Shown here: piece by piece, positions 4,313-59,715 of the stretch | How positions within the stretch are numbered: the first letter of the stretch is position 1 | Layout of the letters: each line of letters opens with the position of its first letter | Assembly (NCBI GenBank): GCA_030430535.1 | Contig: JAUIKY010000004.1 | Location: forward strand, 62,001-126,000 | DNA: 64,000 nucleotides | Direction of reading: 5' to 3' | Source: Bacteroidia bacterium | GTDB taxonomy: Bacteria > Bacteroidota > Bacteroidia > Flavobacteriales > Flavobacteriaceae | Notes under the pieces: generated by a model | What the model was told of the DNA's origin: nothing | Seen by the model: the letters and a program-made list of their open reading frames with translations, nothing else | The model's database searches: none | Translations under genes and position numbers: made by a program

Positions 4313-5836
4313 TTACCCGATGATCATTCCGGCGATGGTGGCCGATATCAAAGACGCAATCGTGCCGCCAATAAGTGCTTTCATTCCAAATCTGGATAGT
4401 GTTTTTCGTTGCCCAGGCGCCAGCGAGCCAATACCACCAATTTGAATGCCAATGGAAGCGAAGTTGGCAAATCCGCATAGCATGTAAGTGGCCATGATAA
4501 TGGATTTTTCGTAGGTTAAGTGAATGCTGCTTGTGGCATTTTTTAAGTCGGCCAATTGAATGTAGCCAATAAATTCGCTAGCAGCCAATTTTATGCCCAG
4601 CAACTGCCCCATGAGGGCCATGTCTTCTTGAGCTACGCCCATGAGCCACATTAAAGGTGCAAAAATGTAACCGAGTATAAATTCCAATGAAAAACTATCA
4701 TAAGAGGTGTTGCCCGCAATCCAAGTGTTTAACGTTGACCAATCGCCAATCCAACCCAGAATACCGTTGAACATAGCTATAAAAGCCACAAAAACCAAAA
4801 GCATAGCCCCCACGTTTACGGCCAATTTTAGGCCTTCGGTAGTACCGTTGGCAATGGCATCCAAAAAGTTGGAACCTATTTTTTCCTGTGATACCGCAAC
4901 ATCGGTATTCACGTTTTGGGTTTGTGGGTAAAGAATTTTGGAAATGACGATAGCACCCGGGGCAGCCATTACCGATGCGGCCAAAAGGTGCTTGGCATAA
5001 AACAAACGCAATAGGGCATCGTCGCCTCCCAAAAAGCCAATATAGGCTGCTAACACGGCTCCGGCTACGGTAGCCATGCCTCCAATCATCACCAAGAGCA
5101 TTTCGCTCTTGTTCATTTTTTCTAAATAGGCCTTTATTAAAAGAGGCGCTTCGGTTTGCCCTAAAAAGATGTTTCCGGCTACGCTTAAACTTTCAGCCCC
5201 AGAAATTTTCAGAGTTTTTGAAAGCAGCCAAGCCATGGCCTTTACCACTTTTTGAATGATACCTAAATAGAACAGTACCGAGGTTAAAGCTGAAAAGAAT
5301 ATAATGGTGGGTAATACCTGAAAGGCGAAAATAAATCCGAAGGTGTCCATATCGACCACCAAACCTTCAAAAAGAAATTTGCTGCCCGCTTTGGTAAACT
5401 CCAAAATTTGAACAAAAAGTCCGCCAATAAATTCAAAAACCGATTTGATGAAATCAACTTTTAAAACGCCAATGGCAATGAGCAGTTGAAAAGCCAAACC
5501 AATACCAACTATTTTCCAGTTTATAGCCCTGCGATTACTGCTAAAAAGGAATGCCAAAAACACTAAGGCCGCCATGCCTAGCATACCGCGCCAAAGGCTG
5601 TTTATTGAAAACCCTTGACTGGGGATGATTTGTGCTTTAGCAAGAATTTCGGGAGTTGTTTCGGCAACTGCTGCCGTCTCGTTATTTTTCGAAATTTGAG
5701 TTAACGAATCGGGTTGCGTTTCAACCAGCGAAACAGATTGAACGACAGGGGCTAAAGTGTCGTTGTTTTTATTTTGAGCTGAAATGTGGGCAGTAAGTAA
5801 AAAACAGACAGCAAAAAATAAAAACAACTTTTTCAT
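4313..5836 (-). CDS. Concentrative nucleoside transporter (NupC/CNT family) with an N-terminal signal-peptide extension
   Basis: 507 residues, inner membrane. The core from about residue 80 on has the multiple membrane segments of the CNT (SLC28-like) family, including the conserved GQTEAPLLIKAY segment, GGMATVAG and the C-terminal AASEFIGYIQL and CGFANFASIGIQIGG blocks. It should import nucleosides with Na+ or H+. Odd point: residues 1-20 form a signal peptide (FLFFAVCFLLTAHISAQ) followed by about 60 polar residues before the first transporter helix, longer than the roughly 400-residue bacterial NupC. The gene lies 15 bases downstream of the bifunctional nuclease family gene and is probably cotranscribed with it; with thyA nearby it fits nucleotide salvage. 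Confidence 0.9.
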   Translation of the reverse strand: MKKLFLFFAVCFLLTAHISAQNKNNDTLAPVVQSVSLVETQPDSLTQISKNNETAAVAETTPEILAKAQIIPSQGFSINSLWRGMLGMAALVFLAFLFSSNRRAINWKIVGIGLAFQLLIAIGVLKVDFIKSVFEFIGGLFVQILEFTKAGSKFLFEGLVVDMDTFGFIFAFQVLPTIIFFSALTSVLFYLGIIQKVVKAMAWLLSKTLKISGAESLSVAGNIFLGQTEAPLLIKAYLEKMNKSEMLLVMIGGMATVAGAVLAAYIGFLGGDDALLRLFYAKHLLAASVMAAPGAIVISKILYPQTQNVNTDVAVSQEKIGSNFLDAIANGTTEGLKLAVNVGAMLLVFVAFIAMFNGILGWIGDWSTLNTWIAGNTSYDSFSLEFILGYIFAPLMWLMGVAQEDMALMGQLLGIKLAASEFIGYIQLADLKNATSSIHLTYEKSIIMATYMLCGFANFASIGIQIGGIGSLAPGQRKTLSRFGMKALIGGTIASLISATIAGMIIG

Positions 5837-15460: not shown

Positions 15461-16003
15461 TTACACAAAGGTAATGCCATGTTCGCCGCAAATGGCAGCC
15501 ACTTTTTCGAAATCGGGTGGGCCAGGAGGCAGTTGCGCCAATGTGTTAAACATGTGTTCAATGCCGGCGGGAAAGGCCGAGGTAATCATTTTGGCTTTTT
15601 CGGTGCCCACCACGGTCCAGGCGTGGGCAATCCCTTTGGGGGCAAAGGCGGTGTCGCCAGCTTTTAAAATAGTGGTGTTGCCATCAACGGTTATTTCAAC
15701 TTCGCCTTTAATCACCCTAAAAATTTCGTCTTCTTTGGTGTGGATGTGTGGCGGAATGCCCACGCCGGGTTCTACGTTATCTACCCATTCCACAATTTGG
15801 TTGTTGGTGTCGCTGCCCACCAGTTTATGGGTTTGAATGTCGCCAATAACGTTTAAAACTTCGCCCTCGCTATCTTTAACGATTTTGGGCTGGGCGGTAG
15901 TGTTGCCGTTGTCTGCTTCTGCGGTTTGACACTGAATGCTACTAGGGATAAGGGCGAGTCCCAAACCTAATCCTGATGTTTTGATAAATGTTTTTCGGTC
16001 CAT
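15461..16003 (-). CDS. Secreted cupin-domain protein
   Basis: 180 residues. The N-terminus MDRKTFIKTSGLGLGLALIPSS has a basic start and hydrophobic core, so export is likely; a lipobox is not convincing. One cupin domain follows: motif 1 GVGIPPHIHTKEDEIF (His86, His88, Glu93) and motif 2 GDTAFAPKGIAHAW (His127), giving a complete metal site of the quercetin-dioxygenase-like superfamily. The substrate cannot be read. The AraC-type regulator gene lies 84 bases upstream on the same strand, so the two are probably cotranscribed or functionally linked, and the pair is bracketed by related palindromic repeats. Confidence 0.8.
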   Translation of the reverse strand: MDRKTFIKTSGLGLGLALIPSSIQCQTAEADNGNTTAQPKIVKDSEGEVLNVIGDIQTHKLVGSDTNNQIVEWVDNVEPGVGIPPHIHTKEDEIFRVIKGEVEITVDGNTTILKAGDTAFAPKGIAHAWTVVGTEKAKMITSAFPAGIEHMFNTLAQLPPGPPDFEKVAAICGEHGITFV

Positions 16004-16087
16004 AATAAATGCTTTTATGCAATTTACAATGGGAATGAAAGCGGCACAATGTGAAAAGTGCCGTAATACCTTAGATTTTGTTTTGGT

Positions 16088-16894
16088 TTAGGCTTTTCGG
16101 AGTTCGGAAGGTGGTATGCCTGTTTGGGTTTTAAAGAAGGCACTGAAATAGTCGGGTGACGAAAACCCCAATTCGAAACTGATTTCCTTTATGGTTTTGT
16201 TCGAAAATTTCAGGGCGTGCCTAGAGCGCATAAGCAACTGTTCTATTAAAATGCTTTTGGAGCTCACTTGAAGTACTTCCTTAACGCATTCGTTGAGGTA
16301 TTTTGGTGAAATATTGAGCATTTTGGCGTAATCGCCCACTTCGTGATAGTTGAAGATATGCTGGTCGGCCAGTTTTTTAAAACTGTAAACAATATTGGCT
16401 TTCGAATTGTTGTCGTTAACCATCGTTTTGATGTTGCATTGCCCGTCGCAATAAATAAAAAAGGTATTGAGCAACGAAAGGATGGCTTCGTCTTTATGGT
16501 TGAGGTGCGAGCCCAAAAGTTCGTCGATCATTTCTAAAATGGACTGCGTGCGTTTTTCAATACCCGGACTGAGCTTAAACATGGGAGTATTGTCACTGCT
16601 GAATAAGCGTACTTTGTTGATGTGCAGATTACTTAATGTGGGCTGGTTCAACACGGCTTCGCTTAAATAAAGTACGTAACCGGAAGCATTGGTGTTTTGG
16701 ATGGAGAGCCGCCATTGGTGTTTGGAGTCGATAAAGAATACGGTATCGGACACGTTTTTATGAAAAACACCGTTAATTTCAATGCCATCAATTTCATTTT
16801 TTACCCAACACACCACAGAGTAGCCCGGTTTTTGTTTTGGGATTTCTACGTGGCTAATGGGCGATATGCTAACGGAGCTTGGCGTCATCAACAC
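16088..16894 (-). CDS. AraC-family transcriptional regulator
   Basis: 268 residues (a start two codons further in is equally possible). The C-terminal 100 residues carry the two helix-turn-helix motifs of the AraC/XylS family: YAKMLNISPKYLNECVKEV and IKEISFELGFSSPDYFSAFFKTQTGIPPSELRK. The N-terminal part (about 15-140) is a beta-rich effector-binding domain of the cupin-like type. It probably controls the cupin gene just downstream; the ligand is unknown. Confidence 0.88.
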   Translation of the reverse strand: MLMTPSSVSISPISHVEIPKQKPGYSVVCWVKNEIDGIEINGVFHKNVSDTVFFIDSKHQWRLSIQNTNASGYVLYLSEAVLNQPTLSNLHINKVRLFSSDNTPMFKLSPGIEKRTQSILEMIDELLGSHLNHKDEAILSLLNTFFIYCDGQCNIKTMVNDNNSKANIVYSFKKLADQHIFNYHEVGDYAKMLNISPKYLNECVKEVLQVSSKSILIEQLLMRSRHALKFSNKTIKEISFELGFSSPDYFSAFFKTQTGIPPSELRKA

Positions 16895-16946
16895 AAATAT
16901 AAGCGTTTTCGTTTTAAAATATGGGTGCTGATTTAAAACGAAAAAA

Positions 16947-17110
16947 GACGGTTTAAAAAGTGAATATAAACGTCATTGCGGGGAGGGTAGCTTGCACTGA
17001 GCGCAGTCGAAGTGAAGCAATCTTATTAATCGGTCACTTGATTTTTAAAAGATTCCCACGTCGCTTCTGTTGTCGCTCCTCGGAATGACGCCTTACTTTT
17101 TAAACCGCCT
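16947..17110. repeat. Single-copy relative of the composite palindromic repeat
   Basis: Ends GACGGTTTAAAAAGT (16947-16961) and ACTTTTTAAACCGCC (17096-17110) are near-perfect inverted repeats and match the ends of the array at 14840-15437. Inside are CGTCATTGCGGGGAGG and GCTCCTCGGAATGACG, again complementary, plus a CACTGAGCGCAGTCGAAGTG module. It separates the regulator gene from metK. Confidence 0.78.
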
Positions 17111-17134
17111 TTATAATTTTATAGGTATTGGGAT

Positions 17135-18388
17135 TTACAGCCCAAATGCTTTTTTAATGGTATCGACGTAATCCAGTTTTTCCCAAGTAAACAATTCCAC
17201 ATCAAGGGTGATGCTTTCGCCGTTAGGTTGCGAAAAGGTTTTTGTAACGGTTTCGTTGGTGCGCCCCATGTGGCCGTAAGCAGCGGTTTCGCTGTACATA
17301 GGGGAACGCAGTTTTAGGCGTTCTTCGATGGCAAACGGACGCATATCGAAAATTTCAGATACTTTTTGGGCAATCTCGCCATTGCTCAAATCCACTTTAC
17401 TGGTGCCATAAGTATCGATAAAAATACCCATAGGCTCTACCACGCCAATCGCATAACTTACCTGAACCAAAACTTCGTCGGCTACACCGGCAGCCACCAA
17501 GTTTTTAGCAATGTGGCGCGTGGCGTAAGCAGCACTTCTATCCACTTTACTCGGGTCTTTTCCGGAGAATGCGCCGCCACCGTGGGCGCCTTTTCCGCCG
17601 TAAGTATCCACAATAATTTTACGTCCGGTTAATCCGGTATCGCCATGTGGGCCACCAATTACGAATTTCCCCGTAGGGTTAATGTGGTATTTTATATTGT
17701 CGTTGAACAGCTTTTGAATGCCTTCTGGTAATTTAGCCACCACACGAGGAATTAAAATCTCAACAATATCTTTTCTAATTTTCGCCAACATGGTCTCGTC
17801 GTCAGCAAAATCGTCGTGTTGTGTAGACACCACAATGGCATCGATACGCTGTGGCACATTATCGTCGCTGTATTCAATGGTTACCTGGCTTTTGCTGTCT
17901 GGGCGCAAATAGGTGATATCCTTATTTTCGCGACGCAACGCCGAAAGTTCCTTTAAAATTCTATGTGACAAATCTAAAGCCAGTGGCATATAGTTTTCGG
18001 TTTCGTTGGTGGCGTAACCAAACATCATCCCTTGGTCGCCAGCACCTTGCTCTTCCTTGCTGCCGCGGTCAACACCTTGGTTAATGTCTTCCGATTGCTC
18101 GTGGATGGCCGAAAATACCCCGCAGGAATTGCCGTCGAACATATATTCGCCTTTGGTATAACCAATGCTGTTAATGGTGTCCCTCGCAATTTTTTGTACA
18201 TCTAAATAGGTGGTCGATTTAACCTCGCCAGCAAGCACCACTTGTCCTGTAGTTACTAAGGTCTCGCAAGCTACTTTCGAGTCGGTATCGAAAGCCAAAA
18301 AGTTGTCGATTAATGCATCGCTAATTTGGTCTGCTACTTTGTCTGGATGCCCTTCAGAAACACTTTCCGAAGTGAATAAATAAGCCAT
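17135..18388 (-). CDS. metK: S-adenosylmethionine synthetase
   Basis: 417 residues, full length for the family. Makes S-adenosylmethionine from methionine and ATP. Landmarks: [17 protein letters not shown] (His14, Asp16), [12 protein letters not shown], the glycine-rich [25 protein letters not shown] loop (read in pieces; the phosphate-binding signature), and [18 protein letters not shown]. The mRNA leader carries a SAM-II-like riboswitch, so the product should repress its own synthesis. Downstream is a palindromic repeat and then the AraC gene. Confidence 0.97.
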
Positions 18389-18439
18389 AATATTTTATTT
18401 TATTGCAAGATTTGACGGAAAACGTCGAAGGAAGTTCGC

Positions 18440-18548
18440 ACTGCCTTTAGCATTTTTAATTTATGCTAAACTTGTTTCAGTATCTTTTCAACTTTACCGA
18501 ACATTTCAGCACAAAAAGAGGTTGCAATCAGTCAAATCTTTCCTCTTG
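18440..18548 (-). ncRNA. SAM-II-like riboswitch upstream of metK
   Basis: Read on the minus strand. AAGAGG pairs with CCTCTT to make P1; between them is GATTTGACTGATTGCAA, closely matching the SAM-II loop GAUUUAACCGUAUUGCAA. Downstream AAAAATGCTAAAGG (ending at 18443) matches the conserved AAAU..GCUAAA..GG pseudoknot strand. Unlike the roughly 50-nucleotide canonical aptamer, about 50 extra nucleotides sit between P1 and the pseudoknot strand. They include TTTAGC, which can pair with GCTAAA and so compete with the pseudoknot. About 55 bases follow before the metK start. Match judged by eye; no covariance search was run. Confidence 0.7.
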
Positions 18549-18561
18549 TTTTTTGATGGCG

Positions 18562-18569
18562 CAAAAGTA
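18562..18569 (-). promoter_or_regulatory. -7 promoter element for metK
   Basis: On the minus strand TACTTTTG fits the TAnnTTTG -7 box. Transcription would start about seven bases later, just before P1 of the riboswitch, as expected. The -33 element is degenerate. Confidence 0.45.
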
Positions 18570-18688
18570 TAAAAATTAAGTAAAACGGTAGTTAAAAATT
18601 TTCTTAAATGGTGAAGCGATATTTGTTTTGAGTGGATTTGTCTGTAGTGAATTATAAAAATTCCTAAAATCGGTACTTAACCCAAAGT

Positions 18689-18786
18689 TGTCACACTGAG
18701 CGGAGTCGAAGTGTTGTTTCAGGCTTTAATCATAAAATGAAGGTTTATTAGCAACATGGGATGCTGAATCGAGTTCAGCATGACGA
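18689..18786. repeat. Dispersed intergenic repeat modules
   Basis: TGTCACACTGAGCGGAGTCG continuing to AAGTGTTGTTT (18689-18719) is the reverse complement of the module at 7860-7890. GATGCTGAATCGAGTTCAGC plus ATGACG (18759-18785) is the reverse complement of the module at 25009-25034 and forms a GCTGAA/TTCAGC hairpin. Confidence 0.65.
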
Positions 18787-18845
18787 AAACGACGTGTTAT
18801 GAAGAAAAGTAAACATTCAATTTTAAGGATTTCTTTTCAAAAAAA

Positions 18846-18876
18846 TTGGCTGTTACATTTTATTTGTAAATATTTG
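18846..18876 (+). promoter_or_regulatory. Predicted promoter of the ilv operon
   Basis: TTG (18846-18848), 20 bases, then AATATTTG (18869-18876), a 7-of-8 match to TAnnTTTG. The same AATATTTG box serves the metY leader. Transcription would begin about 18882-18884, only a few bases before the leader-peptide ATG at 18886, so that peptide may be made from an almost leaderless start. Confidence 0.5.
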
Positions 18877-18885
18877 CAATTCAAA

Positions 18886-18951
18886 ATGGAAAACAACGTT
18901 TTAAATATGGTCATTTCTACCGTCGGTGTCATTATTGGGCATCGAAAGTAG
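18886..18951 (+). CDS. ilv operon leader peptide (attenuation sensor)
   Basis: 21 codons, too short for usual gene calling. The peptide contains VLNMVISTVGVII: eight of 21 residues are Val, Ile or Leu, with GTC-GGT-GTC-ATT-ATT clustered just before the stop (TAG 18949-18951). It lies upstream of a terminator hairpin and of ilvD, and the stop codon abuts an antiterminator sequence. Inferred role: ribosomes starved for Val/Ile charging stall on the cluster and let the operon be transcribed. Confidence 0.85.
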   Translation: MENNVLNMVISTVGVIIGHRK

Positions 18952-19010
18952 GGGTGGTTTAGTTGAACGAAAATATAAATTTAAGCCTTCCCGTATGTGA
19001 GGGCTTTTTT
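18951..19010 (+). terminator. ilv attenuator: terminator with competing antiterminator
   Basis: The terminator (18983-19010) is AAGCCTTC / GAGGGCTT, one G-T wobble, loop CCGTATGT, followed by TTTTTT. GGGGTGGTTT (18951-18960), overlapping the leader-peptide stop, can pair with AAGCCTTCCC (18983-18992) in nine of ten positions, two of them wobble, and would then block the terminator. A ribosome at the stop codon would cover this segment and permit termination; one stalled on the Val/Ile codons would leave it free. No protein gene is seen in the remaining 247 bases before ilvD. Confidence 0.82.
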
Positions 19011-19257
19011 AATGCAATTTTTTTTCATTTTGGGCATCATAAAAATATTGACTTAATTTATTGAAAAACAGTTGTTTGTGTTTGTTTTTTGGGTTGTGGA
19101 TTTAACCCGTGAACACAATACGGAGATATGATAAAGCAGCAATAAATTAATTTCGAAAACTGTTTAAGTGGGTTTTGAGGAAAATCTCGTAAAAACCTTA
19201 AAAAGATTAAGATTTTACACTAAAAGAAGATAAAAATAAGAATTATCCATAATAAAA

Positions 19258-20943
19258 ATGAAGGAACTTAATAAATATAGTAGAAGGTTAACTCAGGATG
19301 AATCGCAGCCGGCTTCACAGGCCATGTTGTATGCCGTTGGTTTAACGGACGACGATATGAACAAAGCCCAAGTGGGTATTGCCAGTACAGGTTACGATGG
19401 CAACCCATGTAACATGCATTTAAATGCGCTTAAAGATGAGGTGAAGATAGAGTGCAAAATAGCCAATTTGGTTGGTTTGGGCTTTAACACCATTGGGGTG
19501 AGTGACGGTATTTCTATGGGTACTTCTGGTATGAACTATTCCTTGGCGTCGCGCGATATCATTGCCGATTCTATTGAAACCGTAATGAATGCACAAAGCT
19601 ACGATGCGTTGATTTCTATTGTAGGTTGCGATAAAAATATGCCTGGAGCCGTTATTGCTATGTTGCGTTTAAATCGTCCTTCGATTATGATGTATGGCGG
19701 AACGATTGCTTCTGGAAATTATAATGGAAAAAAATTGAACATTGTTTCGGCTTTTGAAGCCTTGGGGCAAAAAGTAGCGGGTGAGATTGATGAAGACGAA
19801 TACCGCGAAATTATAAAAAGAGCCATCCCTGGAGCGGGCGCTTGTGGTGGTATGTACACGGCCAATACCATGGCGTCGGCTATAGAGTGTATGGGCTTTG
19901 CTTTGCCTTACAACTCTTCTATTCCAGCGGAAAATCCTAATAAATTATCGGAGGCAGAGCGTCATGCCATTGCCATTAAAAAACTGTTGGAATTGGACTT
20001 AAAACCTTTGGATATCATTTCAAAAAAATCCATTGAAAACGCCATCGCTTTAGTAAATGCTTTAGGAGGGTCAACCAACGCGGTATTGCACTTTTTGGCC
20101 ATTGCCCATGCTGCCGATATCGAATTTACTTTAGAGGATTTTCAACGTGTAAGCGACAGAACACCGCTTATTGCCGATTTAAAACCTAGCGGAAAATATT
20201 TAATGGAAGATGTTCACGGTATTGGAGGAACACCAGCCGTAATGAAATATCTTTTGGATAATGGCTATTTACACGGCGATTGTATGACGGTTACCGGAAA
20301 AACCTTGGCGGAAAACCTTGAGGATGTTGAGCCTTTAGAGTTTGAAGAAGATAGCCAAGATGTGATTTACCCAACCGATAAAGCGTTAAAATCTTCAGGG
20401 AACCTTCAAATTCTGTACGGTAACTTGGCCAGCGAAGGTGCTGTAGCAAAAATTTCCGGAAAAGAAGGCTTGGTGTTTGAAGGTAAAGCTGTGGTTTACG
20501 ATGGTGAACAAGCAGCGAATACAGGAATTTCGAATGGTGAAGTTTCAAAGGGTGATGTGGTCGTCATCCGGTACGTCGGTCCTAAAGGTGGTCCCGGTAT
20601 GCCAGAAATGTTAAAGCCAACCTCGTTGATTATGGGAGCTGGCTTAGGTAAATCAGTGGCTTTGATAACCGACGGTCGATTCTCTGGAGGTACGCACGGA
20701 TTTGTGGTGGGGCACATCACGCCCGAAGCGCAAACCGGTGGGGCTATTGGCTTGGTGAAAACTGGTGATAAAATTAGAATCAGTGCTGAAGACAATTCCA
20801 TTAACGTGTTGATTTCAGATGAAGAAATGGCCAAAAGAAAAGCCGAATGGAAAGCGCCAGAGCTTAAACATAAAAAAGGAATTTTATACAAATATGCTAA
20901 ATCGGTAGCATCAGCATCAAAAGGATGCGTTACCGATGCATAA
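19258..20943 (+). CDS. ilvD: Dihydroxy-acid dehydratase
   Basis: 561 residues. Dehydrates dihydroxyvalerate and dihydroxymethylvalerate, the third step of Val/Ile synthesis, using an Fe-S cluster. The cluster cysteines are visible: NPCNMH (Cys51), VGCDKNMPG (Cys124) and [12 protein letters not shown] (Cys196). The C-terminal [11 protein letters not shown] and [17 protein letters not shown] motifs are the family signatures. First structural gene after the ilv attenuator; ilvB follows in 53 bases containing a small TTTCCGC/GCGGAAA hairpin of the dispersed-repeat type. Confidence 0.97.
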
Positions 20944-20996
20944 AATATTGATTTTTTTCATTTCCGCGGAAGCGGAAATCCCAATAAAGTGTGATT

Positions 20997-22730
20997 ATGA
21001 AAACACAAACCGCAGAAAAAACGAAAGAAGTGGCAAATAAAGTAGAACGTATTACAGGCGCCGAAGCCGTTATAAAAAGCTTAATAGCAGAAGGTGTGGA
21101 TATTCTTTACGGATACCCAGGAGGGGCAATCATGCCTGTTTACGATGAGTTATATAAATTTCAAGATCAAATCCATCACGTGTTAACGCGCCACGAGCAA
21201 GGTGCGGCACATGCTGCACAAGGTTATGCGCGTATCTCTGGAAAAGTAGGGGTAGCCATGGCAACATCGGGGCCCGGGGCAACCAACTTAATCACCGGAA
21301 TTGCCGATGCACAAATCGACTCGACGCCGTTGGTGTGCATTACGGGTCAGGTAGCTTCTCATTTATTGGGAAGTGATGCGTTTCAGGAAACCGATATAGT
21401 GGGGATTTCCACGCCAGTAACCAAATGGAATTGCCAAGTAACCAATGCAGCCGATATTCCAGCGGCATTGGCAAAGGCCTTTTATATCGCTAAAAGCGGA
21501 AGACCAGGCCCGGTATTGGTGGATATCACCAAGAATGCCCAGGTCACCGAATTGGATTTTAAATACGAAAAATGTACTGGAGTACGTAGTTATAAACCCG
21601 TTCCAAAAACCGATCCAGAGGCTGTAAAAGCTGCGGCAGAATTGATTAACAACGCCAAAAAGCCCATGATTGTTTGGGGGCAGGGCGTTATTTTAGGTGA
21701 AGCTGAGGCCGAACTGAAAGCGGTTATAGAAAAATCTGGAGTGCCAGCCGCATGGACCATATTAGGAGCGTCGGCATTGCCAACCTCGCATCCGTTAAAT
21801 GTGGGCATGGTGGGTATGCACGGTAACTATGCGCCTAACAAATTAACCAACGAATGCGACGTGCTTATTGCTATCGGTATGCGTTTTGACGACCGTGTAA
21901 CGGGGAATTTGGCAACCTATGCGAAGCAGGCCAAAGTAATTCATTTTGATATTGACCCCGCCGAAATCGATAAAAACGTAAAAACCGATGTGGCCGTTTT
22001 AGGAAATTCGAAAGAGAGTTTGGCGATGTTGGTTGACGCTTTAAAGGAAAACAGTCACGAGGCGTGGTTGCAGGAATTTAAAGACCTATACAAAATTGAG
22101 TTTGAAAAAGTAATTAAAAATGATTTGGAGCCAACCAAGGAAGGCTTGACTATGGGTGAAGTGCTTAAGCAAATCAACATGGAGAGTAAGGGGCAGGCCG
22201 CCATTGTTTCCGATGTGGGGCAGCACCAAATGATTGCTTGTCGTTATGCCGATTTCAACGTCACCAAAAGTAATATCACTTCTGGTGGTTTGGGTACTAT
22301 GGGCTTTGCGCTTCCCGCGGCTATTGGAGCTAAAATGGCGGCACCAGAACGTGAGGTTGTAGCCATAATAGGCGACGGAGGTTACCAGATGAACATTCAG
22401 GAATTGGGCACCATTTTCCAAACCAAAGCCGCTGTTAAGATTGTAGTGCTTAACAACGAATTTTTAGGAATGGTACGCCAATGGCAGCAGTTGTTTTTCG
22501 ATAAGCGTTACGCTTCCACCGAAATGACCAATCCTAATTTTGTGGCGATTGCCGAAGGGTATTACATCAAGGCCAAGCGTGTAACCAAGCGCGAGGAATT
22601 GGCCGATGCCGTTAAGGAGATGATGGCTTCAAAAGAGTCGTACTTCCTTGAGGTTTGTGTGGAGAAGGAAGATAACGTATTCCCAATGATACCTACAGGG
22701 GCATCAGTTTCAGATGTAAGATTAAGCTAA
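20997..22730 (+). CDS. ilvB: Acetolactate synthase, large (catalytic) subunit
   Basis: 577 residues from ATG 20997 (a GTG two codons earlier is possible). Condenses two pyruvates, or pyruvate and 2-oxobutyrate, with thiamine diphosphate and FAD. Landmarks: GYPGGAIMPVYD, the catalytic-glutamate motif TRHEQGAAHAAQGYA (Glu67), TSGPGATNL, and the cofactor-binding GDGGYQMNIQELGT ... LNNEFLGMVRQWQ near the C-terminus. Followed by ilvN for feedback control. Position in ilvDBNC is standard for the group. Confidence 0.96.
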   Translation: MKTQTAEKTKEVANKVERITGAEAVIKSLIAEGVDILYGYPGGAIMPVYDELYKFQDQIHHVLTRHEQGAAHAAQGYARISGKVGVAMATSGPGATNLITGIADAQIDSTPLVCITGQVASHLLGSDAFQETDIVGISTPVTKWNCQVTNAADIPAALAKAFYIAKSGRPGPVLVDITKNAQVTELDFKYEKCTGVRSYKPVPKTDPEAVKAAAELINNAKKPMIVWGQGVILGEAEAELKAVIEKSGVPAAWTILGASALPTSHPLNVGMVGMHGNYAPNKLTNECDVLIAIGMRFDDRVTGNLATYAKQAKVIHFDIDPAEIDKNVKTDVAVLGNSKESLAMLVDALKENSHEAWLQEFKDLYKIEFEKVIKNDLEPTKEGLTMGEVLKQINMESKGQAAIVSDVGQHQMIACRYADFNVTKSNITSGGLGTMGFALPAAIGAKMAAPEREVVAIIGDGGYQMNIQELGTIFQTKAAVKIVVLNNEFLGMVRQWQQLFFDKRYASTEMTNPNFVAIAEGYYIKAKRVTKREELADAVKEMMASKESYFLEVCVEKEDNVFPMIPTGASVSDVRLS

Positions 22731-22846
22731 TTGGAAAATAACAATATAGATAAAAGCATATAGAAACTAGAGATGGTGCAAGGGTTTTAAAATTAGATTT
22801 AAACGTCTTTTCTCTTTCATCTTTTCTCTTTCATCTTTTTTAAAAA

Positions 22847-23380
22847 ATGAACGAAGACATAAAAACATTCACTATATCGATTTATACCGAAAACAATATT
22901 GGTTTGTTAAACCGTATTTCGGCTATATTTCAAAGGAGGCATATCAACATTGAAAGCTTGACCACATCGCAGTCTGAAATTGATGGCGTAAACCGTTTCG
23001 TTATTGTGGTGAACATCACCGAGACCAATGCGAAAAAAATCGTTAAGCAAATTGAAAAGCAGGTAGAAACGATTAGAGCCTATTATCATACTGATGAAGA
23101 AACGATTTTTACCGAGTCTTGTATGTTCAAAATCAAGTCGAGCTTGTTGTTTGACGAACCTCAAATTCAAAATATAATTAAGGAAAGCGATACCAGAATA
23201 GTTACTGTAAACCGTGAGTTTTTTGTGCTTGAAAAATCGGGCAGACGCCACGAAATCGAGGCTTTGCGTCGCGATTTAAACGTATTCGGTATCATGCAAT
23301 TTGTGCGCTCGGGCCGAATTGCGGTAACCAAAGATGAAATGAAAGTAACCGAATTGCTTAAGGCATTCAATAACCAATAA
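22847..23380 (+). CDS. ilvN: Acetolactate synthase, small (regulatory) subunit
   Basis: 177 residues. The N-terminal 80 residues are an ACT domain ([32 protein letters not shown]), which in this family binds valine and activates and feedback-inhibits the large subunit; the C-terminal part is the usual ALS_ss_C-like region. The 116-base gap after ilvB contains short TCTTTTCTCTTTCA repeats and no gene. ilvC follows in 25 bases. Confidence 0.95.
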
Positions 23381-23405
23381 TAGAATAATAACAATTAAAA
23401 TTAAA

Positions 23406-24881
23406 ATGGGAAATTATTTTAACACACTGTCGTTAAGAGACAAACTAAATCAATTATCGAAGTGTAGATTCATGGATACTTCTGAGTTTTCAGATGGAGT
23501 AAATGCATTAAAAGGAAAGAAAATCGTTATAGTAGGATGCGGTGCCCAAGGGTTAAACCAAGGGTTGAACATGAGGGATTCTGGATTGGATATTTCTTAT
23601 GCATTGCGCGATGCCGCTATTTCAGAGAAGCGTGCTTCTTATGTTAATGCTACCGAAAACGGATTTACTGTTGGTACTTACCAAGAATTGATTCCAACGG
23701 CCGATTTAGTGCTTAACCTTACGCCAGACAAGCAGCACACCAACGTGGTAAACGCTGTAATGCCTTTGATGAAAAAAGGGGCTACTTTGGCTTATTCCCA
23801 TGGGTTTAATATTGTTGAGGAAGGAATGCAAATTCGTGAAGACCTTACCGTAATCATGGTGGCGCCTAAGTCGCCAGGTTCTGAGGTTCGCGAAGAATAT
23901 AAAAGAGGTTTTGGTGTGCCAACTTTAATCGCGGTACACGAAGAAAATGACCCAGAAGGAAAAGGTTGGGCGCAAGCCAAAGCGTATGCCGTAGCTACTG
24001 GAGGCGATAGAGCAGGTGTATTGGCATCGTCTTTTATTGCTGAAGTGAAGTCCGATTTAATGGGTGAGCAAACCATTCTTTGTGGATTGTTACAAACCGG
24101 TTCTATCCTTTGTTTCGACAAAATGGTTGAAAAAGGAATCGAGCCTGGTTACGCTTCAAAATTAATCCAATACGGATGGGAAACCATTACTGAAGGATTG
24201 AAATATGGTGGTGTAACCAACATGATGGACCGTTTGAGTAACCCAGCAAAAATAAAAGCTTTTGAATTAGCTGAAGAATTGAAGGATATTATGCGCCCAT
24301 TGTTTCAAAAGCACATGGACGATATTATTGAAGGGGAGTTTTCTAAAGGCATGATGGAAGATTGGGCTAACGACGATAAGAAATTATTGGATTGGAGAGC
24401 TGCAACCGGAGAAACTGCTTTTGAAAAAACGCCTGCTGGAGATGTAGAAATTACAGAACAAGAGTACTACGATAACGGTGTGTTGATGGTAGCTTTTGTA
24501 AAAGCGGGTGTAGAATTAGCTTTTGAAGCTATGGTAGATTCTGGAATTATCGATGCATCGGCTTACTACGAGTCATTGCACGAAACACCACTTATCGCCA
24601 ACACGATTGCTAGAAAGAAATTGTTCGAAATGAACCGTGTGATTTCTGATACAGCTGAGTACGGATGTTACTTGTTCGATCATGCTTGTAAGCCTTTGTT
24701 GGCCGATTTTATGAAGAAAATCGATACCGACGTAATTGGTAAAGCATACGCTAAAGACAACGGAAAAGGCGTTGATAACGCTAAGTTGATTGCAGTGAAT
24801 AAAGCTTTGAGAAATCACCCTGTTGAAAAAGTAGGTGAGTTCCTTAGAGCGTCAATGACCGCTATGAAACCAATAGTTTAA
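23406..24881 (+). CDS. ilvC: Ketol-acid reductoisomerase, class II (long form)
   Basis: 491 residues. Isomerises and reduces acetolactate/acetohydroxybutyrate with NADPH and Mg2+. The nucleotide-binding motif [15 protein letters not shown] is at about 41-55. The length, about 150 residues over class I enzymes, reflects the duplicated C-terminal knotted domain of the class II (E. coli-like) form. Last gene before a strong terminator, so ilvDBNC is one unit and ilvA is outside it. Confidence 0.96.
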
Positions 24882-25139: not shown

Positions 25140-26399
25140 ATGAAAAGCCAAGTCTATTTCCCAAAATTGGAAGACATAAAAAAAGCAGCCGAAACCATTA
25201 AAAACGTTTCGGAAGTAACTCCGTTAAGTAAAGGTTTGAGGTATTCAAAACGGTTTGGTGCAGAAATTTATTTTAAGCGCGAAGACCTTCAGCAAGTACG
25301 TTCGTATAAAATTCGTGGGGCGTACAATAAAATTAGTTCCTTGACTAAGGAGGAAGCCGAAAATGGCGTAGTGTGTGCCAGTGCGGGAAACCATGCCCAA
25401 GGGGTGGCTTTGTCCTGTAAATTATTAAAAATAAAAGGATCAATTTTTATGCCGGCACCAACGCCCAACCAAAAGGTGGAACAGGTAAAGATGTTTGGTG
25501 AAGATTTTATCGAGATTAAATTGGTGGGCGATACTTTTGATGATGCTAGTGAGGCTGCCATGAAGGAATGCAAAGAGCAGGGTAAAACCTTTATTCACCC
25601 TTTTGATGACCAAAAAGTGATTGAAGGGCAGGGAACGATAGGTTTGGAAATTATTGAGCAAACCCAATTGCCGATTGATTATATGTTTGTGGCTATTGGT
25701 GGTGGCGGGCTGGCATCGGGATTGTCAACCGTATTTAAGGAATTGTCGCCCAACACAAAAATTATTGGCGTGGAGCCTGAAGGCGCACCATCGATGAAAA
25801 CCTCCATTGAAAATAATAAAAACACCGAACTCGAACATATTGAAAAGTTTGTGGACGGCGCTGCGGTAAAACGAGTGGGCGATTTAAACTTTGCAATCTG
25901 TAAACAGAATCTCGACGACGTGATTACCGTTCCCGAAGGCAAGGTTTGCGAAACCATTTTGGAACTTTATAATAAAGATGCCATTGTGGTAGAGCCTGCT
26001 GGCGCACTAAGCACGTCCGCTTTAGATTTTTATGCAGACAAAATAAAAGGCAAAAATGTAGTCTGCGTCATTAGCGGAAGTAATAACGACATTACCCGAA
26101 CCGCAGAAATAAAGGAACGGGCCTTGCTTTATGCCAATTTAAAGCACTATTTTATTGTGAATTTCCCCCAACGTGCCGGAGCATTGAAGGAGTTTGTGGT
26201 TGAAATTTTAGGGGAAAATGATGATATTACTTATTTTCAATATGCCAAAAAAACCAATCGGGAAAATGGTTCAGCCGTGGTGGGTGTGCAATTAAAATCG
26301 GCCAACGATTTAGAGCCACTCATTGCTAAAATGAAAAAACGAAATTTTTACGGCGATTATTTAAACAACAAACCAGATTTGTTTCAGTTTTTAGTGTAG
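25140..26399 (+). CDS. ilvA: Threonine ammonia-lyase (threonine deaminase)
   Basis: 419 residues. Converts threonine to 2-oxobutyrate, the entry step to isoleucine. The PLP lysine is in VRSYKIRGAYNKI (Lys57); CASAGNHAQGVA and the phosphate-binding GGGGLASG follow. The C-terminal ~85 residues (HYFIVNFPQRAGALKEFVVEIL...) are one ACT-like regulatory domain, against two in the 514-residue E. coli enzyme, so feedback control may differ. It has its own leader after the ilvC terminator. Confidence 0.94.
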   Translation: MKSQVYFPKLEDIKKAAETIKNVSEVTPLSKGLRYSKRFGAEIYFKREDLQQVRSYKIRGAYNKISSLTKEEAENGVVCASAGNHAQGVALSCKLLKIKGSIFMPAPTPNQKVEQVKMFGEDFIEIKLVGDTFDDASEAAMKECKEQGKTFIHPFDDQKVIEGQGTIGLEIIEQTQLPIDYMFVAIGGGGLASGLSTVFKELSPNTKIIGVEPEGAPSMKTSIENNKNTELEHIEKFVDGAAVKRVGDLNFAICKQNLDDVITVPEGKVCETILELYNKDAIVVEPAGALSTSALDFYADKIKGKNVVCVISGSNNDITRTAEIKERALLYANLKHYFIVNFPQRAGALKEFVVEILGENDDITYFQYAKKTNRENGSAVVGVQLKSANDLEPLIAKMKKRNFYGDYLNNKPDLFQFLV

Positions 26400-59456: not shown

Positions 59457-59486
59457 CATTCGTAAAGTTCAAACACTTATTGAGAT

Positions 59487-59596
59487 GTTATCAAGAAAGG
59501 CGGAGGGATTAGACCCAATGAAGCCTTAGCAACCCTTTATCTGTAAAGAAGGTGCTACATTCTACCCCGTAGTTTAGTACGATTGGATAGATAACC
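59487..59596 (+). ncRNA. SAM-I (S-box) riboswitch
   Basis: The outer stem GTTATC (59487-59492) pairs with GATAAC (59590-59595). Inside are the hallmark AAGAAAGGCGGAGGGATTAG, ACCCAATGAAGCC, TTAGCAACC and AAGGTGCTACATTCTACCCC blocks in the correct order (kink-turn, P2, J3/4 and P4). It lies 119 bases upstream of the metY start, so S-adenosylmethionine should turn off metY and the cotranscribed metX-thrA fusion. Confidence 0.93.
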
Positions 59597-59715
59597 AAAC
59601 AGAATTACTTCAAGTAGTTTTATAATTTCTTCATAACATTTTTCTAATAGGGGTACACTTGTTTTAAGTGCATTAACTTTGTATTATTTTTGTTGAATAA
59701 GAAAAAAATAGAAAA

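Follow-up and report, generated by a model that had tools for sequence, protein, structure and literature searches.

A probable leader-peptide attenuator upstream of the ilv operon in a Flavobacteriaceae genome and its counterparts in other Bacteroidota

The 64,000-nt stretch of contig JAUIKY010000004.1 analysed here (the window) carries, upstream of ilvD, an element that, with a probability that we put at about 0.92, controls the ilv operon as a ribosome-mediated transcription attenuator of the classical type and senses the charging of Ile- and Val-tRNA. The genes that lie 3' of it, ilvD-ilvB-ilvN-ilvC-ilvA, make up the pathway that its leader would sense. This reading, first put forward in a preliminary description of the DNA, is supported by the joint conservation of leader ORF and terminator and by the alternative helices of the leader RNA. 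We have computed the ORF, the predicted helices and their conservation, the covariation of the 1:2 helix and the geometry, and we infer translation of the leader, ribosome stalling, the response to amino acids through tRNA, and the start site.

Results

Parts of the attenuator and its surroundings

The leader ORF, MENNVLNMVISTVGVIIGHRK, lies on the plus strand at 18886-18951 and by translation has 21 codons and a stop, with four codons for Val, three for Ile and one for Leu (8 of 21). The antiterminator strand GGGGTGGTTT (18951-18960, plus strand) shares the last base of the TAG stop codon of the leader and is complementary to AAGCCTTCCC (18983-18992), with which it can pair. The intrinsic terminator at 18983-19010 (plus strand; stem 18983-19006, U-tract to 19010) is the sole terminator-like site in 18389-19300, where 0.5 would be expected from shuffles. 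All three parts had been described before, and we confirmed each of them at these positions. In addition, a 1:2 (protector/pause) helix is predicted at 18912-18956 (plus strand), in which the Val/Ile codons pair with the start of the antiterminator strand (18912-18920 with 18948-18956, and an inner helix of 18923-18930 with 18938-18945); its counterparts in relatives covary.

The operon begins with ilvD as its first structural gene (19258-20943, plus strand; NCBIfam TIGR00110), followed on the same strand by ilvB, ilvN and ilvC (20991-24881; TIGR00118, TIGR00119 and TIGR00465) and by ilvA for threonine ammonia-lyase (25140-26399; TIGR02079), all above cut-off. On the other side, metK (17138-18388, minus strand) is divergent from ilvD. 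It could be argued that a chance ORF happens to lie beside the ordinary terminator of an upstream gene, as AT-rich DNA yields many small ORFs. However, besides the divergence of metK, the sole plus-strand ORF of at least 80 aa in 16000-19257 is antisense to metK, so that the terminator does not evidently belong to any gene before it. Together with the shuffle controls and the joint conservation given below, this leaves a chance arrangement with a negligible probability.

Two further features of the window may be recorded here. As a SAM-II riboswitch precedes metK (18467-18551, minus strand) and a SAM (S-box) riboswitch is found at 59485-59597 (plus strand), two SAM riboswitch classes occur in one window. 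A scan of the whole window on both strands for ORF-terminator pairs gave one other case, within 4975-5111 (plus strand), where a terminator-like hairpin comes after an Arg-rich ORF of 32 codons.

The leader RNA folds better than shuffled sequences (z -2.95; 1 of 200 shuffles was equally good), which would also be expected if the terminator were switched by a ligand or a protein, that is by a riboswitch, a T-box or an RNA-binding protein, with the ORF incidental. Against such a switch, the Rfam search of 18800-19300 gave no family at gathering score over the attenuator, the coding bias of the ORFs tracks the pathway at ilvD, hisG and PDT, and the geometry relative to codons and stop recurs among relatives. 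We therefore regard it as very improbable. Two weak Rfam matches, to Arrc14 (25.7 bits, cut-off 99) and Phe_leader (25.1 bits, cut-off 55), were not accepted as membership.

Conservation in ilvD loci of relatives

Conservation was followed in 108 ilvD loci, which, being related, are non-independent samples: the best 80 of at least 596 matches and 31 further loci gave 111, from which the duplicates L001, L015 and L109 were removed. An attenuator was called where a 12-32-codon ORF that begins with ATG and has six or more I/L/V in 10 was followed 8-75 nt later by a U-tracted hairpin. Leaders were sought with ATG only, and a GTG-start candidate in L058 was left uncounted; for L082 and L083 we used the full ORF in place of the internal ATG chosen by the script.

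Leader and terminator were found less than 600 nt from ilvD in 44 of the 108 loci, as against 7 of 2160 dinucleotide shuffles. The preliminary description had made its reading depend on joint conservation of the two in relatives, and they are indeed conserved together, their co-occurrence being beyond chance. Where ilvD has 150 nt or more of free upstream DNA, 43 of 81 loci carry an attenuator; where another ORF, of 80 codons or more, is nearer to ilvD than this, 1 of 27 does. The other 64 loci, in which the first criteria gave no attenuator less than 600 nt from ilvD, were scanned again over all upstream DNA at hand with a stricter density of 7 I/L/V in 10. Attenuators were gained in 15 of these (the controls gave none in 192 shuffles and none on 64 opposite strands), one of them doubtful, as the leader of L080 is Leu-rich, has no Ile and lies just upstream of ilvD. 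The other 14 are 1.06-1.4 kb upstream of ilvD, and in the four loci that were typed (L021, L043, L048, L076) the gene in between is ilvE; the attenuator thus tends to mark the start of the operon.

By record title, attenuators occur in Flavobacteriaceae, Saprospiraceae, Chitinophagaceae and Cyclobacteriaceae, and also in the Cytophagia Chryseolinea and Fulvivirga. Two carriers (L018 and L067) have titles outside Bacteroidota; these are MAGs and perhaps misassigned. Five close relatives with at least 89% protein identity (L002, L003, L004, L010, L087) gave no attenuator less than 600 nt from ilvD by the first criteria. In three of them (L002, L004, L087) the DNA upstream of ilvD shows what, by eye, resemble decayed or shortened attenuators, together with a downstream element that is kept, which suggests that the attenuator has been lost in some relatives.

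Over 50 leaders, the codon totals were 268 for Ile, 146 for Val and 62 for Leu. Among the 41 of the 50 attenuators scoring at least 13, the last I/V/L codon starts 12-19 nt before the antiterminator in 31, and in the window it starts 17 nt before it; such a spacing is about the reach of the leading edge of a ribosome. The terminators of the 50 attenuators are of several kinds (26 CCTTCC-like, 11 CCTGTATC-like and 13 other), and the UGA stop is part of the antiterminator in 9 of the 11 attenuators of the CCTGTATC kind.

Two leader-terminator units lie in series in 6 of the 44 loci (L008, L018, L028, L036, L094, L103) and also in the rescanned L012 and L105, eight loci in total. Six of the eight combine a CCTTCC-like first terminator with a CCTGTATC-like second one. 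The second leaders of tandem pairs have no enrichment of promoter boxes (2 of 6; shuffled mean 3.0), and are therefore presumably read from the first promoter.

Alternative helices

That the leaders can form alternative helices is supported by the complementarity between the strand after the stop and the 5' arm of the terminator. The mean within loci was 15.34, compared with 11.85 when strands were swapped between loci (sd 0.40, maximum 13.16 of 500) and 10.92 when the letters of the post-stop strand were shuffled (maximum 11.7 of 200).

Covariation of the 1:2 helix points in the same direction. In an alignment of 18 of the 26 CCTTCC-kind leaders, picked for alignability (A1), the 1:2 helix has two-sided changes in 7 of 8 pairs and a score of 0.452 (0.239 shuffled, at most 0.259 when slid). 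In the alignment of all 11 CCTGTATC-kind leaders (A2), the 1:2 helix and the terminator together have two-sided changes in 8 of 20 pairs and a score of 0.361 (0.222 shuffled, at most 0.145 when slid). Neither score was reached by any of 500 shuffles, which related rows can beat even without structure; the scores also lean towards the scored helices, because these were derived by RNAalifold from the same alignments, with one A1 pair added by hand. The 2:3 helix of A2 is paired in 93.3% of cells with two-sided changes in 1 of 11 pairs, and 89 of 500 shuffles match it; since its strand is conserved and hardly varies, covariation does not test this helix.

A model of switching and its folding tests

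We propose that RNA polymerase would start at a promoter just before the leader ATG (P1) and that a ribosome would begin the leader peptide very close to the 5' end of the RNA. When Ile- and Val-tRNAs are charged, the ribosome would reach the stop codon (18949-18951) and cover the antiterminator, so that the terminator stem (18983-19006) would fold and transcription end. When Ile- or Val-tRNA is uncharged, the ribosome would stall in the V-x-V-I-I stretch and leave 18951-18960 free; this strand could then capture the 5' arm of the terminator before the 3' arm is made, and allow read-through into ilvD-B-N-C-A. If no ribosome is present, the antiterminator strand would be caught in the 1:2 helix, which would thereby promote termination.

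In a folding model that assumes the ribosome edge at 12 nt from the first base of the A-site codon, the terminator of the window had a probability of 0.96 in the naked RNA; a ribosome in the Ile codons lowered this to 0.14-0.27, and one at the stop left it at 0.96. The probability was below 0.5 for free 5' ends at 18926-18951 and at least 0.9 from 18952. This equilibrium switch was seen in the window and L084 only. In the other 48 of the 50 attenuators, including L083 of the same genus, the complete RNA keeps the terminator (P >0.5) despite a stalled ribosome, and we dropped equilibrium folding as a test of switching across the family. Since the terminator wins there at equilibrium, the switch must be kinetic in these 48, with the antiterminator forming first.

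In RNA that does not yet reach the 3' arm, over half of the terminator 5' arm was held upstream in 46 of the 50 attenuators with a stalled ribosome, in 1 with a ribosome at the stop, in 5 with a shuffled spacer and in 22 with a naked leader. The corresponding values for the window were 0.87 (stalled), 0.08 (at stop), 0.60 (mean of shuffled spacers) and 0.39 (naked). As the naked leader holds the 5' arm upstream in 22 of 50, the protector role of the 1:2 helix is not clear-cut; the high mean for shuffled spacers in the window likewise counts against the model.

Predicted promoter and length of the leader 5'UTR

Candidate P1 elements, predicted from the DNA alone, are a -33-like TTGG (18846-18849, plus strand), whose position fits the -33/-7 promoter architecture given in PMC7366714, and a -7-like box AATATTTG (18869-18876, plus strand) with one mismatch to TAnnTTTG. 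As TAnnTTTG is located at -12 to -5 according to PMC9723704, the predicted +1 is at about 18881, 5 nt before the leader ATG. The 5'UTR was predicted as the gap from box to ATG minus 4, which for the gap of 9 in the window gives about 5 nt. Two other upstream boxes tie with AATATTTG and have gaps of 19 and 24 (5'UTRs of 15 and 20 nt); the box at 18869 is the tied candidate that recurs in the close relatives L083-L085 and L027.

Of 44 first leaders, 36 have a box matching at least 5 of 6 positions no more than 36 nt from the ATG (shuffled mean 17.7, maximum 27 in 200 rounds), and the other eight have no promoter-like box. Where boxes tied, the one nearest the ATG was taken, which biases the following lengths to short gaps: the predicted 5'UTR is about 1 nt in 7 of the 36 (gap 5 nt), 2-10 nt in 21 (gap 6-14 nt), 14-18 nt in 7 (gap 18-22 nt), all Flavobacterium by title, and 23 nt in 1 (gap 27 nt). 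For L099, an in-frame ATG 12 nt further upstream was used for the gap. Leaders of hisG and PDT have box-ATG gaps of 6-27 nt and 2-19 nt, respectively.

The start had been called almost leaderless. For the window this is a fair prediction, in that AATATTTG would place it about 5 nt before the ATG, and it is qualified by the two tied boxes and by the variation between lineages. With predicted 5'UTRs ranging from about 1 nt in seven loci to 14-18 nt in the seven of Flavobacterium, near-leaderlessness is, on these predictions, a trait that varies between lineages. The wide range of predicted gaps thus indicates that a very short 5'UTR is common but not essential.

Leaders at other amino-acid operons

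We surveyed other operons in the same genome and 25 relatives. A His-rich leader with a terminator is present at 16 of 18 hisG loci and a Phe/Tyr-rich leader with a terminator at 19 of 20 PDT (pheA) loci, the window's own genome being among both. Its two leader ORFs, which lie outside the window, are MTFIHTHHHFQIGSQAK at hisG (L114; His-rich) and MTTTVYYTYFNNYFFFSGRNEALYV at PDT (L191; Phe/Tyr-rich), each with a terminator. The background of the scan was 1 match in 111,732 shuffled bases of one strand, and the 662,698 real bases (both strands) also held some matches unrelated to the His and Phe/Tyr leaders. Upstream of leuA (26 loci) and the homoserine dehydrogenase gene (26 loci), we found no convincing leader in flanks that may miss the start of thrA; because the search domain is C-terminal, the DNA before the homoserine dehydrogenase gene was probably often not reached. 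On the reverse strand of L139 (3859-3976), an Ile/Leu/Val-rich ORF MLRFDIISNVIILLRET with a terminator lies about 1.2 kb beyond leuA, and is not upstream of leuA.

A conserved element downstream of the terminator

A second conserved element, apparently acting at the level of DNA, follows the terminator at 19025-19164 (plus strand) and consists of sites at 19030, 19058 and 19094 and a promoter-like box. The box, TAATTTCG (19148-19155, plus strand), resembles a -7 box and would belong to a predicted second promoter, P2. In counts made with a position matrix seeded with 14 hand-picked loci, 50 of 108 loci had an element that outscored all shuffled sequences, and 19 of these 50 have no attenuator near ilvD. 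When the first site (TTGGGCATCATAAAAA, 19030) and the TAnnTTyG-like box were sought separately, they were found in 63 and 42 of 108 loci, respectively (13 and 13 shuffled). In 24 of the 29 loci with both, they are 112-115 nt apart (positions swapped: mean 2.8, maximum 9 of 2000). Three close relatives (L002, L010, L087) keep the element and have no recognised attenuator.

RNAalifold predicted no pairs over 36 of the 50 downstream elements (alignment A3), and we dropped the idea that the element is a structured RNA. Its conservation showed no 10.5-bp periodicity; the strongest apparent period is about 33 bp. A motif search seeded with TTGTGGATTTAACC drifted to GC-rich matches (56 of 108 loci, 29 shuffled) and was discarded. 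A small ORF, MQFFFILGIIKILT, lies 3' of the terminator at 19012-19056 (plus strand), and similar ORFs are found in close relatives. We rejected it as a second leader peptide, as it sits on the conserved element and has no terminator after it in the window; the ORFs are probably alike in relatives because they overlap this element.

The element was also sought in 21 genomes with a sequence-only model, scoring 150 candidates in each. In the window's own genome, the ilvD copy is the only strong match (69.1 bits, E 1e-18; next 16.6 bits). Matches with E <1e-6 were found in six relatives, five of them adjoining ilvD or a fragment of this gene and one (G011) about 1 kb upstream of ilvD; several of these ilvD copies are in the model's own alignment and match by construction. 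The strongest other match had 22.4 bits (G001).

We read the element, tentatively, as an array that a regulator would bind before P2. As a conserved element with a promoter-like box at near-fixed spacing lies 3' of the terminator, the attenuator may not be the only gate of ilv. In a stronger form, the attenuator would be real but minor, and ilv would be expressed mainly from P2 under a DNA-binding regulator on the array at 19030-19107. The occurrence of the element without an attenuator, its near-fixed spacing, its lack of predicted RNA pairs and its single strong copy in the genome all favour this view. On the other hand, P2 is a prediction whose box is one position off TAnnTTTG, with no -33 element seen; both motif searches are noisy when taken alone; the genome search was limited to 150 candidates per genome and used a model built from some of the loci that it found; and attenuators persist across many lineages, as would hardly be expected of inert elements. 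We consider a dominant P2 unlikely, though a good deal less so than the other rival readings.

Discussion

Leader-peptide attenuators are known in Proteobacteria from ilvGMEDA, ilvBN, his, trp and phe. The element in the window has in common with these a leader ORF rich in the amino acids of the pathway, alternative 1:2, 2:3 and 3:4 helices, an intrinsic terminator before the first gene, and a stop codon at the antiterminator strand. Unlike them, it is predicted to have a promoter box of the Bacteroidota type and a very short leader 5'UTR, units in series occur in eight loci, and a promoter-like element lies 3' of the terminator.

The preliminary description had held that attenuation is seldom described in Bacteroidota. 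This is right, but it is not undescribed: a flavobacterial transcriptome study of 2021 on Flavobacterium psychrophilum reports 'strong clues' that leader peptides attenuate transcription before amino-acid operons, and says that the 5' elements of pheA and hisG also occur in further genera of Flavobacteriaceae (PMC9723704). F. psychrophilum belongs to the same bacterial family and the mechanism proposed for its amino-acid operons is the same; we found no ilv leader in the parts of the main text consulted. Seven Flavobacterium loci in our sample have longer predicted 5'UTRs than the window. Small ORFs reminiscent of leader peptides are mentioned for Bacteroides in PMC7366714, and PMC4833913 cites a comparative paper by Lopatovskaya and others (2010) that may list cases from Bacteroidota.

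Leader-peptide attenuation outside Proteobacteria has likewise been reported in other phyla than that of the window, namely Actinobacteria (PMC1262725) and, for hisS/hisZ, Firmicutes (PMC2965389). The authors of the latter wrote in 2010 that they knew of no case demonstrated beyond Proteobacteria and Actinobacteria, and no word in their main text starts with 'Bacteroid' or 'Flavobact'. A cis-element upstream of ilvD, of which some copies have a terminator, is the ilvD (WRC-18-2) motif; in this it is like the element in the window, but PMC8632094 gives it for Veillonella (Firmicutes) only, as a weak riboswitch candidate with no leader peptide proposed.

The short 5' end predicted here resembles that of trpL of Sinorhizobium meliloti, where the 5' end of the attenuator RNA is reported to be the leader ATG itself (PMC7298713), as against about 5 nt before the ATG in the window; trpL belongs to an alphaproteobacterial trp operon, whereas the window has ilv. 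As an attenuator RNA that starts at the leader ATG and also acts in trans is described in that paper, the attenuated RNA or the peptide might act in trans here, like peTrpL/rnTrpL, besides or instead of in cis. The peptides of relatives, however, differ outside the Ile/Val stretch, so that constraints on codons and RNA fit better than a conserved function of the peptide, and we hold an action in trans to be improbable.

The mechanism proposed for the window is thus classical and little described in the phylum, and our literature search found no description of its breadth at ilv in Bacteroidota. The search, which was not aimed at serial attenuators or the downstream element, found neither of these described.

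We tentatively suggest, at rather less than even odds, a broader picture in which several classes of Bacteroidota use leader peptides on very short 5'UTRs, almost absent in some lineages, as Ile/Val sensors of ilv, sometimes two in series, and in which part of the Flavobacteriaceae would add a separate, regulator-controlled promoter 3' of the terminator at near-invariant spacing, so that ilv is under two-input control. Leader-peptide attenuation needs the first ribosome to be close behind RNA polymerase, and the mRNAs of Bacteroidota lack Shine-Dalgarno sequences. If the two-input picture is true, the coupling of ribosome and polymerase would be tight from the first codons in Bacteroidota. The conserved attenuation and the spacing between codons and antiterminator would offer a natural test of transcription-translation coupling without Shine-Dalgarno sequences, and also of translation starting on very short 5' ends. 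The attenuator further draws attention to small ORFs that have been overlooked at ilv, his and pheA, and a putative regulator is predicted to act on the element 3' of the terminator.
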